In this document: piece after piece, positions 1,035 to 13,939 of the stretch
Layout of the letters: each line of letters begins with the position of its first letter
How positions within the stretch are numbered: position 1 is the first letter of the stretch
Assembly: GCA_022573485.1 (NCBI GenBank)
Contig: JACZTW010000004.1
Location: 1 to 32,690, forward strand
Length of the DNA: 32,690 nucleotides
Origin: Planctomycetota bacterium
Lineage (GTDB): Bacteria; Planctomycetota; Phycisphaerae; UBA1845; CAIVHJ01
Reading direction: 5' to 3'
Notes under the pieces: generated by a model
Database searches by the model: none
Seen by the model: only the letters and a program-made list of their open reading frames with translations
What the model was told of the DNA's origin: nothing
Made by a program: the position numbers and the translations under genes

Positions 1035-3035
1035 CTATTTCTTCTTAGCGTCGTCCGCCATTTTCTCCAGTTTCTGAAGAAACTTGGGCATCCTGATTGA
1101 TTTGCGTCCGGTGGATTTTCCGGGGCCGCCGGGTTTGCCGCCGCGCTCCTCTTCCTCGCGGAGGTGCTTGCGGATGCGGCGCTGCTCGACCAAACCGAAG
1201 AAATTGCTGGCCATGATGTACAGCGTCAAGCCCGAAGGTGCGTTATAAAAGAACAAGATCATCATCGCGCTCATGACATACATCATCATGCGCTGCTGGG
1301 CCATTTGGTCGGCAGCCTTACCGGTCGCTTTGGCGGCGGCGGCCGGCTTGGGCATGAACTTCTGTTGCAGCCACATGCTGATGCCCAGCAGCAGCGGCAG
1401 GAGATTGAAAGAGGCCACGGTGCCGATCAATGGAATATCGAACGGATGATCGAAGTAGAACAGCGCATCGGGAACAGTCAGATCGTTGATCCACCAGAAG
1501 AACGGCTGATGGCGCATGGCCACGGTCGAATTCAGGGCGCCGAACAGGCCGGCCCAGATCGGCATCTGGCACATCATCGGCAGGCACGAGAGCATCTGCC
1601 CCGCCGGGTTGACGCCTTCCTGCTGATAGAGCTTCATGGTCTCCTGGTTCAGCCGAGTCTTGTCATTTGCGTATTTCTTGCGGAGTTCCTCCATCTTCGG
1701 CTGCAAAGTAGCCATTTGTCCCGCCATGCGGGCCATGCCGATCTGGCTCTTCTTGGTCAGGGGATGGAGGCAGGTTCGGACGATGATCACCAAGAAGATG
1801 ATGGCCATCCCGTAGTTGTAAGGCGGCACGTAGTCATGGCAGGCCTTGAGCAGCCAAACCATCGAATTGACGAACGGCGCCCATTGGCAGCAGTAATAAT
1901 CCACTTGAAGCAACTGCATATAGTTGCGCGAAAGATAGAGGGGGTTGCCTTCGAACACTTCTCTTGATTTGGATCCGAGATAGCAGTCGAATGAGAACGT
2001 GGTGCTGCCCTGAACCGGCACGCGAACCGCCGAATTGATCAGCCGAAAGCTGAGATCCTCGGTTTGGCCGTCTTCTTTGGACAGCCGGACGGCCTGCGCC
2101 GTCCAGGACGACGGCGACCCGCCCGTGCCCTTATTCAGCGCCACCGCAACAGCGAAGAAGCGGTTCGTCAGCCCACACCACGCAAAGCCGGCCTTCGATT
2201 GGTCGCTGTGAAGAAGTGGTTCGCCGGAGCCCTGTTTGACCTTGCTGTTTTGAAGTGACTCAATGTCGATCTGCCCACCGATGTCGAAGCCGACCGTGAC
2301 GCGACGATAGTCGATGCGCGATACGACGGACCCGTCGGGCGTTCGCAATCCCTCGCGCGGCACGCCGGTCGGGCCCAATTGAGTGATGATGACCTCCGCA
2401 GACTCGTCGCCGAGATTCTCATAACGGAGCACCAGCTCGAGCGCATCGGGGGCCTGCTCGCCCGACGGCGCCCGGAGAATGTAGGTCTTGGTCAGCCGGC
2501 CGATGGGCTGATCCTCGCCCTGGCGGAAGAACTCGATCCAGAATACCGCGCGTTCGGTTCCGTCGATGGTCTCGCGTTTGGCGTGCCAATACAGTTGGTC
2601 TAGCTGAAAGCTTTCCTCACCCCGCCTCAGATTGATGCTCTCGGTGACGAATGAGTACAGCAGCGTCTCATCTTTTAGTTTGACCGGCCCGATGATTGGA
2701 TAAAACTGTTCCTTGCGGATTGTTTCATAGTGGTCCCTCAGCCGCGCAGAGACCATCCCACCTCCGCGGTTGCTCAGCGTGAGCGCCAAAGCAAATGGGC
2801 TTTTGATGTTGGGATCAGTGCTGCCCAATTCGATGAATTGCTCGGCGTCCACGCCGCGCGCCTCCATATCGCGCGGCGCGCGGATAACCGGATCGGCCTT
2901 GTGATCCGCCGTTACGACTTCTTGCTGTGAAGCGGGTGGCGGCGGCTCAGGCCGAAACGCCCGGGTCAGCAGGTTCCAAACCACAAACGCCAGCAGGGCG
3001 GCGATGAGGGCTTTGAAGAGATTGTCTTTATCCAT
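1035..3035 (-). CDS. yidC: membrane protein insertase YidC/Oxa1 family
   Basis: N-terminal TM segment plus periplasmic domain, then the conserved C-terminal core (NYGMAIIFLVIIVRTCLHPLTKKSQIGMARMAGQMATLQPKMEELRKKY..., MPIWAGLFGALNST, SGLTLYIMASNFFGLVEQ). Confidence 0.95.
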   Translation of the reverse strand: MDKDNLFKALIAALLAFVVWNLLTRAFRPEPPPPASQQEVVTADHKADPVIRAPRDMEARGVDAEQFIELGSTDPNIKSPFALALTLSNRGGGMVSARLRDHYETIRKEQFYPIIGPVKLKDETLLYSFVTESINLRRGEESFQLDQLYWHAKRETIDGTERAVFWIEFFRQGEDQPIGRLTKTYILRAPSGEQAPDALELVLRYENLGDESAEVIITQLGPTGVPREGLRTPDGSVVSRIDYRRVTVGFDIGGQIDIESLQNSKVKQGSGEPLLHSDQSKAGFAWCGLTNRFFAVAVALNKGTGGSPSSWTAQAVRLSKEDGQTEDLSFRLINSAVRVPVQGSTTFSFDCYLGSKSREVFEGNPLYLSRNYMQLLQVDYYCCQWAPFVNSMVWLLKACHDYVPPYNYGMAIIFLVIIVRTCLHPLTKKSQIGMARMAGQMATLQPKMEELRKKYANDKTRLNQETMKLYQQEGVNPAGQMLSCLPMMCQMPIWAGLFGALNSTVAMRHQPFFWWINDLTVPDALFYFDHPFDIPLIGTVASFNLLPLLLGISMWLQQKFMPKPAAAAKATGKAADQMAQQRMMMYVMSAMMILFFYNAPSGLTLYIMASNFFGLVEQRRIRKHLREEEERGGKPGGPGKSTGRKSIRMPKFLQKLEKMADDAKKK

Positions 3036-3137
3036 AATTGTCGTCGATCACAAGCTGTTCCGTCAGCCGCCGCATATCAATCCCCGATCCCTGATCCCTT
3101 TCCCCTTCCCCTCCCTCTCATTCCCCTGTTGCTCTGG

Positions 3138-3320
3138 CCCGGATGATTCACCGCAGAGAACGCGGAGAACGCAGAGTGTTGTAGAGAAAGAAGTTGCGAG
3201 CGATCATGAATAGGCGTTGCTTTGACAGTGTGGATCGCCCGTCGTTCTGCCTCGGCTTCGCGAAGTCTTCTTCTCTTGCGTCTCTGCGGTCTCTGCGTTC
3301 TCTGCGGTGAATTATCCGGG
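3138..3320. repeat. 183 bp inverted-terminus intergenic element, copy A
   Basis: Ends CCCGGATGATTCACCGCAGAGA ... TCTCTGCGGTGAATTATCCGGG (21/22 inverted match); the interior aligns with 13715-13898 read in reverse complement. Confidence 0.85.
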
Positions 3321-3327
3321 TTAGCCG

Positions 3328-4191
3328 TCACCGGCCTTCGTACAGGCGTTCGCCGAGAAAGTCATCCAGCTCCGGCACGGCTTTGACTTTTGCGACAGCC
3401 TTGTCGATGTCGTATTCCACGCGGACGAATTCAATCTTGGGCAGCACTCCGCCTTCGGGTGCGGCGGCTGGGTCGAGCATGATCGGCTTGTCCTCGTTGT
3501 TGTCATTCAGGGTGAAGTCATCCAGAATGCTGTCGTAGTTGTGCAGCAGGACATAGCAGGCCCGCGAATCCTGATCGCGCGGCTGGCCCACACTGCCGAC
3601 ATTGATGATGGCTTTTTCGTCGGGCGACAATTCAAAGATGTTCGGCTCGGGCAATTCCGAAGGCGGGTCGAAGTAAGGATCGTCCAGAAAAACGCCCGGT
3701 ACGTGTGTGTGGCCGGTGAAACAGGCTCGCTGGCCTTCCTCCAGGCGCTCGAAATTCGCGAGAATCTTGTGTGGGTTGGTATAGACATCTTCCGCAAAGA
3801 GGTATTCGTTCACCGGCCGCCGCGGCGAAGCATGTACGAACAACAGTTCCTTAAGTTGGACCCGAAAGGGCAGGCGGCCCAGAAACTCCCACCGCCGGTC
3901 ACGGGCGGCTTTGTGCGGTTCGCGCTCGAACACGTCGCGTGTCCAATAGCAGGCCCGCTCAGCGCCGATGTTAAAGTTGTACGGCTCATAGAAAACCGCT
4001 TGATCATGATTCCCGCACATACTAAACCGCACCCGCTCGATCACCAGGTCGAGGCAGTCGCCGGGGCTGGCCCCGTAGCCGACCACGTCGCCCAGACAAA
4101 TGATGTCCTTGATCCCTCGGCCGTCGATATCGGCGAGCACCGCTTCGAGGGCTTCAAGGTTGCCGTGAATATCAGAAATTATCGCAATCAT
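3328..4191 (-). CDS. metallophosphoesterase (calcineurin-like, YfcE/protein-phosphatase type)
   Basis: MIAIISDIHGNLEALEAVL, CLGDVVGYGASPGDC, GNHDQAV, FTGHTHVPG, NVGSVGQPRD motifs. Confidence 0.93.
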   Translation of the reverse strand: MIAIISDIHGNLEALEAVLADIDGRGIKDIICLGDVVGYGASPGDCLDLVIERVRFSMCGNHDQAVFYEPYNFNIGAERACYWTRDVFEREPHKAARDRRWEFLGRLPFRVQLKELLFVHASPRRPVNEYLFAEDVYTNPHKILANFERLEEGQRACFTGHTHVPGVFLDDPYFDPPSELPEPNIFELSPDEKAIINVGSVGQPRDQDSRACYVLLHNYDSILDDFTLNDNNEDKPIMLDPAAAPEGGVLPKIEFVRVEYDIDKAVAKVKAVPELDDFLGERLYEGR

Positions 4192-4491: not shown

Positions 4492-5271
4492 GTGCCAAAG
4501 GCGGAGCGGTCGCGTAGAATTCCGATCGTGGCGCACGAACCGAACATCCTGGCCATCGAAACCTCCGGGCGCGTCGGCAGCGTGGCATTGGCCACCGGCT
4601 GCGAGTTGAAACAGTCCGCCAAATTCCGCGCGGATTTCAGCCATGCCGCGGAACTTCTGCCCACGATCGATGAGTTGTGTCGCCCGCTGAACTGGACACC
4701 CGGCGACATCGATCACGTTTACCTCTCGATCGGTCCCGGCAGCTTCACGGGTTTGCGGATTGCCGTCACACTGGCGCGGACCCTGGCACTCTCCATCAAG
4801 GCGGACATCGTCGCCGTTGCGACACTCGAAGTGATTGCCCAGAATGCATTGCTCGCGGGTGAACCTCCGCCGCACGTGGCGGTGCTCCTGGACGCCAAGC
4901 GCGGGCAAGTCTACTCAGCCGCATTCGAGCGGGCAGAGAGTCGATATGCACCAACTGTCGATGCCCGTATCGCCGACCCAATCGAATTCCTCAACGGTCT
5001 GCCGCAGCCGGTGTGCGTCCTCGGTGAAGGCATCACGTATCTTCGGGAGGCGTTGGCATGTGTGGCCCACACGGAACTGCCGGAAGCACTGTGGCCGCCA
5101 GGAGTGGAAACGGTTCTCAAGCTGGGGTATGAGAAAGCGCAGCAAGGACAGTTTGAACAACCCACTGCCTTGGTTCCGGTCTACCTCAGAAGGCCGGAGG
5201 CGGAAGAAGTGTGGGAACGGCGACACACCGGGAAAGGGAAGAACGAATCAGGTCCGCACGCGCGCGATTAG
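4492..5271 (+). CDS. tsaB: tRNA threonylcarbamoyladenosine biosynthesis protein TsaB (true start may be GTG near 4531)
   Basis: NILAIETSGRVGSVALA ... SIGPGSFTGLRIAVTLARTLAL ... VAVLLDAKRGQVYSAAFE. Confidence 0.92.
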   Translation: MPKAERSRRIPIVAHEPNILAIETSGRVGSVALATGCELKQSAKFRADFSHAAELLPTIDELCRPLNWTPGDIDHVYLSIGPGSFTGLRIAVTLARTLALSIKADIVAVATLEVIAQNALLAGEPPPHVAVLLDAKRGQVYSAAFERAESRYAPTVDARIADPIEFLNGLPQPVCVLGEGITYLREALACVAHTELPEALWPPGVETVLKLGYEKAQQGQFEQPTALVPVYLRRPEAEEVWERRHTGKGKNESGPHARD

Positions 5272-5408
5272 GCTCTGTCTGAAAACACCCAAGGAGCCGC
5301 AGATCCCGGCGCGCCGGGAAAATCCCGACTTGTCGGGAGTCTGCGCGAGGCCTCGCGCGGGTTAAGACCCGCGGCTCTTTGAAAGAATCTGAGTTTTCAG
5401 ACAGAACC
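5271..5408. mobile_element. MITE-like element, family TAGGYTCTGTCTGAAAAC, copy 1 (flanked by TA on both sides)
   Basis: TIRs GGCTCTGTCTGAAAAC / GTTTTCAGACAGAACC; TA at 5269-5270 and 5409-5410; homologous in reverse complement to 7894-8000. Confidence 0.8.
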
Positions 5409-5593
5409 TAGTCGCCCAATCCTGCAAACAGAGCCTGAAGCAGGATGTTCGCGAACGTCGTGGAGGTCGTCTCCAGGCCCTGCAACACGGCGTCTCGCAC
5501 ACCCGGGCTGCACGAGGTCACTTGAAACAGGGCTCCTCCGGAGCACAAGGCCATGAGCAAGATCCGCCGGTATAATCTCGATCCCAAACGCAT
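5408..5593 (-). CDS. tiny putative lipoprotein/exported protein, paralog of 5784-6020
   Basis: MRLGSRLYRRILLMALCSGGALFQVTSC... signal peptide with lipobox-like VTSC; GGGAG ribosome-binding site upstream of ATG 5593 (ORF track extends to 5644). Confidence 0.6.
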   Translation of the reverse strand: MRLGSRLYRRILLMALCSGGALFQVTSCSPGVRDAVLQGLETTSTTFANILLQALFAGLGD

Positions 5594-13657: not shown

Positions 13658-13714
13658 AACCTGTATGAGAAGGTGGTTGTGTCATCAGAGGCGCTTCTGA
13701 CACGCGCACTTTAG

Positions 13715-13898
13715 CCCGGATATTTTACCGCACAGCACGCAGAGGCCACCAAGACGTAACAAAAAAAGGACTTAGCAAAGCCGGCGCAACACGGGCAAGT
13801 GATACACACTGTCCAAGCAACACGCGCTCGAATTTGGCCGCAACTTCTGGACAACAATACTCTGCGTTCTCCGCGGTCTCTGCGGTAAAATATCCGGG
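13715..13898. repeat. 184 bp inverted-terminus intergenic element, copy B
   Basis: CCCGGATATTTTACCGCACAG ... CTCTGCGGTAAAATATCCGGG; interior (reverse complement) GTGTTGCTTGGACAGTGTGTATC matches copy A GCGTTGCTTTGACAGTGTGGATC. Confidence 0.85.
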
Positions 13899-13939
13899 TT
13901 CAGGGTCGTCGCCGCGGCGGACCATGGCATACGAGCGGT

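Follow-up and report, generated by a model that had tools for sequence, protein, structure and literature searches.

Insertion sequences of the IS5 type duplicate a 4-bp target whose published motif is YTAR (PMC10359306), carry terminal inverted repeats, and have short non-coding derivatives, the IS5-type MITEs. A bacterial MITE containing tandem short repeats is reported from Porphyromonas gingivalis (PMC4596501); there a minisatellite lies within the MITE. The 23S rRNA intervening sequence of Coxiella combines heptamers with a terminal stem (PMC4990558), and intervening sequences associated with the S23 protein (PF05635) likewise have terminal inverted repeats that form a long stem next to short tandem repeats. 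The element described here resembles each of these systems in part. With the IS5 derivatives it shares the 4-bp YTAR duplication, the inverted ends, and the absence of coding sequence, but its ends, CCCGGATNNTTCACCG, were found on no transposase gene here, and the target motif is the one feature that suggests IS5 membership of the mobilizing enzyme. Unlike those of the P. gingivalis MITE, its short repeats build the inverted arms themselves. Unlike the 23S rRNA intervening sequences, it lies outside rRNA, has no ORF, and uses 9-nt rather than 7-nt units; we rejected it as an intervening sequence because it is non-coding and sits between protein genes.

The window, the whole stretch of DNA analyzed, comprises 32,690 nucleotides of a Planctomycetota bacterium (contig JACZTW010000004.1, positions 1 to 32,690). 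The features discussed below are the following:

3138..3320, plus strand: copy A of the putative MITE, whole element, with CCCGGAT...ATCCGGG ends; based on 14 near-full copies in its own genome, the family ends, and the target duplication
3138..3176, plus strand: left terminal inverted arm of copy A, CCCGGATGATTC followed by ACCGCAGAG/AACGCGGAG/AACGCAGAG units
3282..3320, plus strand: right terminal inverted arm of copy A, 92% complementary to the left arm
3134..3137, no strand: left flank of copy A, CTGG, a decayed form of YTAR at the position of the duplicated 4-bp target
3321..3324, no strand: right flank of copy A, TTAG, in agreement with the YTAR consensus, at the position of the duplicated 4-bp target
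13715..13898, minus strand: copy B of the putative MITE, whole element; based on the inverted repeat and the own-genome copies
13711..13714, no strand: flank of copy B, TTAG on the plus strand (CTAA on the minus strand), at the place of the target duplication
13899..13902, no strand: flank of copy B, TTCA on the plus strand (TGAA on the minus strand), decayed partner of the duplication
3328..4191, minus strand: metallophosphatase gene (PF12850/PF00149), its TGA stop 7 nt from copy A
1035..3035, minus strand: yidC gene (60 kDa inner membrane protein, PF02096), downstream of copy A

The initial annotation had described an intergenic element at 3138–3320 and 13715–13898 in opposite orientation, and both coordinates proved exact. 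The ends that it quoted were also right (GGATGATTCACCG and GGATAATTCACCG in copy A, GGATATTTTACCG at both ends of copy B), as were the interior blocks that it gave as common to the two copies, which align over their full length at 74% identity (E = 9.5e−25). Among all inverted repeats in the window, copies A and B rank highest. The arms of copy A are 39 nt each, with 105 nt between them; those of copy B, which lies in the minus orientation, are 30 nt long and 87% complementary. We found no credible ORF within the element, in agreement with the annotation; its longest frames, which disagree between copies, arise from the CGCAGAG repeats. A further inverted repeat lies at 5264–5286 and 5393–5415 (23 nt, 91% complementary, 106 nt apart; GCGATTAGGCTCTGTCTGAAAAC), and is possibly a different small element.

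The description of a dispersed intergenic element with inverted ends was borne out by the genome to which the window belongs, which contains 14 near-full copies and many arm-only matches. That assembly has 3.37 Mb in 345 contigs and is about 81% complete and 5.8% contaminated; like the other genomes it is a draft, and every copy number given here is a minimum. The core is also found in copies from G052 and G058, genomes from the same order but other families, and 8 of the 114 genomes from the order have ends of this type. One of these, G196, has undergone a burst, with 54 MITE ends (L195–L227), several of which have fresh duplications; many of its ends coincide with a contig break or lie close to one. 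A tree of 20 copies places those of G052 in one group and those of G058 in another, so amplification seems to have been lineage-specific. The element was unmatched in the plasmid collection and in viral contigs, and a 26-base core pattern gave a single match, JACZVE010000028.1 (L092), in a scan of named genomes. This contig is filed under a SAR324 cluster MAG but is orthologous, with closely similar flanks, to contig C173 of the own genome. Because that MAG holds no other copy of the element and no metallophosphatase homologue, the contig may be mis-binned. Within the CGCAGAG arm of some MITE copies lies a second small palindromic element (TTAGCGCGGCCTTCGGCCGC...CGACCGTTTGCAAT), which occupies 164 bp in L006 (about 1335–1505). 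The orthologous copy L092 is uninterrupted, and the comparison reveals a clean insertion of this second element with no target duplication. A related left end occurs at the same arm phase in L010 and in L186, the latter from another family of the order.

Pooling of 68 distinct ends gave the consensus YTAR at −4 to −1, followed by CCCGGATNNTTC(NN)ACCGCAGAG, the element reading on from CCCGGAT; information was near zero from −5 outward. YTAR is self-complementary and could belong to either the element or the target, and the deciding test was whether the 4 bp on the two sides of a single copy agree. Exact 4-bp direct repeats flanked 15 of 41 complete elements (shuffled mean 5.05, maximum 12 in 20,000 shuffles, P < 5e−5), one of them extending to 5 bp; the first set had given agreement in 13 of 35 elements, versus about 4 in shuffles. 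Two agreeing pairs were off-consensus, CGAG/CGAG (L176) and TCAG/TCAG (L178), pairs that the element is hardly likely to have supplied and that assign the 4 bp to the target. From the excess of agreement over shuffles and from these two pairs, we conclude that YTAR is a 4-bp target-site duplication. At both window copies the duplication is decayed (CTGG/TTAG and TTAG/TTCA), and these are old insertions.

The stop codon of a long ORF exactly abuts the element (at −3) in 10 of 22 copies. The expectation from non-coding YTAR sites in the window was about 23% (7 gene-end versus 23 intergenic sites; binomial P = 0.019), and thus the target motif together with gene avoidance explains most of this placement. 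Because TAG and TAA fit YTAR, the stop codon survives insertion and the gene stays whole. Copy B sits between two convergent gene ends. For copy A, the comparison with relatives that the initial annotation had proposed showed that genomes G001 and G002, of related genera, keep the metallophosphatase–yidC pair without the element. In these genomes (L095 and L094, respectively) the gap holds different short hairpins, as though elements had landed in it repeatedly. In a genome from another family of the order (G058:C202, L051/L096), the same metallophosphatase gene is followed at short distance by a MITE copy that is oriented the other way with respect to the gene.

These results make it very probable that both window copies are old members of a non-coding MITE family of approximately 184 bp, mobilized in trans by a cut-and-paste transposase of the DDE type with a 4-bp staggered cut at YTAR. 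The family has conserved outer ends on terminal inverted repeats (68 ends); it is short, dispersed, and free of a transposase ORF (about 184 bp, 14 near-full copies in the own genome); and it has a target duplication of fixed length (15 of 41 elements, the window copies being decayed) with the YTAR motif of IS5-derived MITEs. Insertion flush behind a stop codon would leave the gene intact through the first copy of the duplicated TAG or TAA. Judging from the target motif, the mobilizing enzyme would be IS5-like; the search for the enzyme itself was negative. Of the 23 PF01609 loci in five carrier genomes, not one is bounded by MITE ends; these loci carry other ends, and no insertion sequence with homologous IS5-family ends was seen among them or at the other loci examined. 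One candidate autonomous element, a 1293-bp end pair in G196 (L202), was rejected, as it contains a nested MITE and an unrelated gene but no transposase.

The initial annotation had interpreted joint changes in the two arms as compensatory, as expected of a paired element. An element of this kind could be a structured RNA, such as a regulatory hairpin or a cis-acting sequence behind stop codons, with base pairing under selection. Both window copies are indeed predicted to fold strongly (z = −10.7 and −5.0 against dinucleotide shuffles), the paired arms are long, and the element is placed directly behind genes. The compensatory reading had been based on two copies, however, and failed when the covariation check was run on 20: the score was 0.085 versus 0.080 in shuffles, 101 of 500 shuffles being as high, and standard pairs made up 81.5% of the arms versus 80.7% in shuffles. 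The covariation term of +0.37 kcal/mol gave no support for pairing, and several arm mismatches are fixed across copies. When arms were matched to their own and to swapped partners, P was 0.05 over all copies, 0.24 for comparisons within genomes, and 0.72 with the outer part alone. An Rfam search gave no match, the element has no T-run terminator, and the marks of transposition are clear. We therefore consider selection for an RNA structure very unlikely.

Co-conversion of the arms, which had been offered as the other possibility, fared better for the two window copies, whose two arms agree in both length and sequence. Ordinarily the left arm is two bases longer than the right (TTCAAACC against TTCACC). 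In L001 (copy A), L003, and L007 (copy B) this 2-nt surplus is gone and the left arm equals the copy's own right arm, the bases before ACC in both arms being TTC, TTA, and TTTT, respectively. L009 also lacks the surplus, by way of a 9-nt arm deletion. The arms of L092, at the site orthologous to L006, have also changed independently: two 9-nt units have gone from the right arm but not from the left. Of all copies, A forms the most nearly perfect hairpin, with 12 of 12 outer and 26 of 27 inner pairs and −112 kcal/mol. The equal arms of three copies, including both in the window, point to arm-to-arm copying; copying of this kind, through template switching, has been described (PMC8794818, PMC7202029). 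Occasional rewriting of one arm from the other at an extruded hairpin would yield the equal arms of the window copies, and for these three copies it is a simpler explanation than selection on RNA.

The inner parts of the arms led to a different comparison. After ACC, the MITE arms repeat CGCAGAG every 9 nt, and they match the inverted arms that frame most genes for GxxExxY proteins (PF13366), which mostly start with ACC and repeat C[AG]C[N][AG]AG every 8–10 nt. Arm pairs were present at 44 of 56 GxxExxY genes, 33 of the 44 with CCRCNRA[GAT]. The arm tests were run with fixed flanks and one score cut-off, on loci that include some gene fragments: arm pairs scoring at least 28 were found at 21 of 26 PF13366 genes in relatives and 23 of 30 across the phylum, and 24 genes of the window reached at most 24. 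In the first 30 loci, own arms scored better than swapped arms (mean 38.8 versus 19.1) and the own partner was best in 21. The GxxExxY arms are mostly 8–10-nt periodic, and the window arms, ACCGCAGAGNNCGCAGAG, have this period and the CCRCNRA[GAT] motif. In L063, from the same family, and in L068 a GxxExxY ORF lies directly between CGCAGAG arms, in L063 starting right after the last unit of the left arm. Genes for PF05635 proteins (S23/four-helix bundle) were framed in 25 of 33 cases, with period 7 in 19 (14 counted as double) and 8 in 6, and CCRCNRA[GAT] occurred in none of 24 PF05635 arm pairs. The PF05635 repeat arrays (L031–L037, L109–L136) vary in sequence from locus to locus. Searches with the exact arm sequences, GxxExxY, and the family accessions returned no paper describing these arms from a limited, open-access literature, in which absence is weak evidence.

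Mobilization of the element by the PDDEXK-like GxxExxY proteins, acting on the 9-nt repeat arms in place of a DDE transposase, would account for the arm grammar common to it and the GxxExxY-framed genes within the same family of genomes. The own genome has one GxxExxY gene, and the search of the PF01609 loci yielded no DDE partner. That single PF13366 gene lies between long inverted arms of another repeat. Against such mobilization, target duplication was absent from the 43 GxxExxY elements examined, whereas that of the MITE is sharp and of 4 bp; GxxExxY elements also yielded no clear CCCGGAT end, L184 showing a weak resemblance. We regard this explanation as improbable, and spread of a REP/BIME-type palindrome by a RAYT (Y1) transposase as scarcely credible. 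The element is palindromic, intergenic, and multi-copy, in keeping with the latter. REP/BIME sequences, however, are palindromes of 20–40 bp with a GTAG/CGTC tag and no target duplication, and Y1 elements are not known to make one; the present element is 184 bp long with a conserved core and a 4-bp duplication, and the tag is absent from its ends.

For the MITE moved by a DDE-type enzyme, the relationship to the GxxExxY-framed genes may be one of origin. Its inner arms (ACC plus 9-nt CGCAGAGNN units) are of the GxxExxY-framing type, and the MITE was perhaps derived from the ends of such an element after loss of the gene. Because unit, phase (ACC first), and spacing agree, descent or capture is favored over convergence. 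The window element differs in having no ORF and in its additional CCCGGATNN ends and 4-bp duplication; since the GxxExxY-framed elements lack target duplication, the shared arm motif may be due to convergence or capture and not descent. A GxxExxY ORF between the MITE arms gave no convincing tblastn match in 25 copies (best 26 residues, E = 0.002, L009). A hidden GxxExxY remnant in the core was rejected, the short, weak tblastn scraps disagreeing between copies.

The element is a new MITE family of a familiar kind, with a niche provided by its target motif: the motif contains TAG/TAA, and a gene is whole after insertion at its stop codon. The wider gain is the arm grammar. Matched inverted arrays of short repeats flank most of the sampled GxxExxY genes (across the phylum) and S23 genes (in the order), with a repeat period and motif that vary from one protein family to the other. 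Tentatively, and with more doubt than confidence, we propose that these arms are the recognition sites of the proteins that they frame (8–10-nt CCRCNRAG for GxxExxY, 7–8-nt for S23/four-helix bundle). They would then define a widespread minimal class of mobile hairpin that includes the 23S rRNA intervening sequences; within this class, the window MITE would represent a member without a gene, one that gained a second mobility through its CCCGGAT/YTAR ends. The arm grammar yields a testable prediction on what GxxExxY proteins, S23 proteins, and rRNA intervening sequences do: each protein should bind or cut its own repeat.
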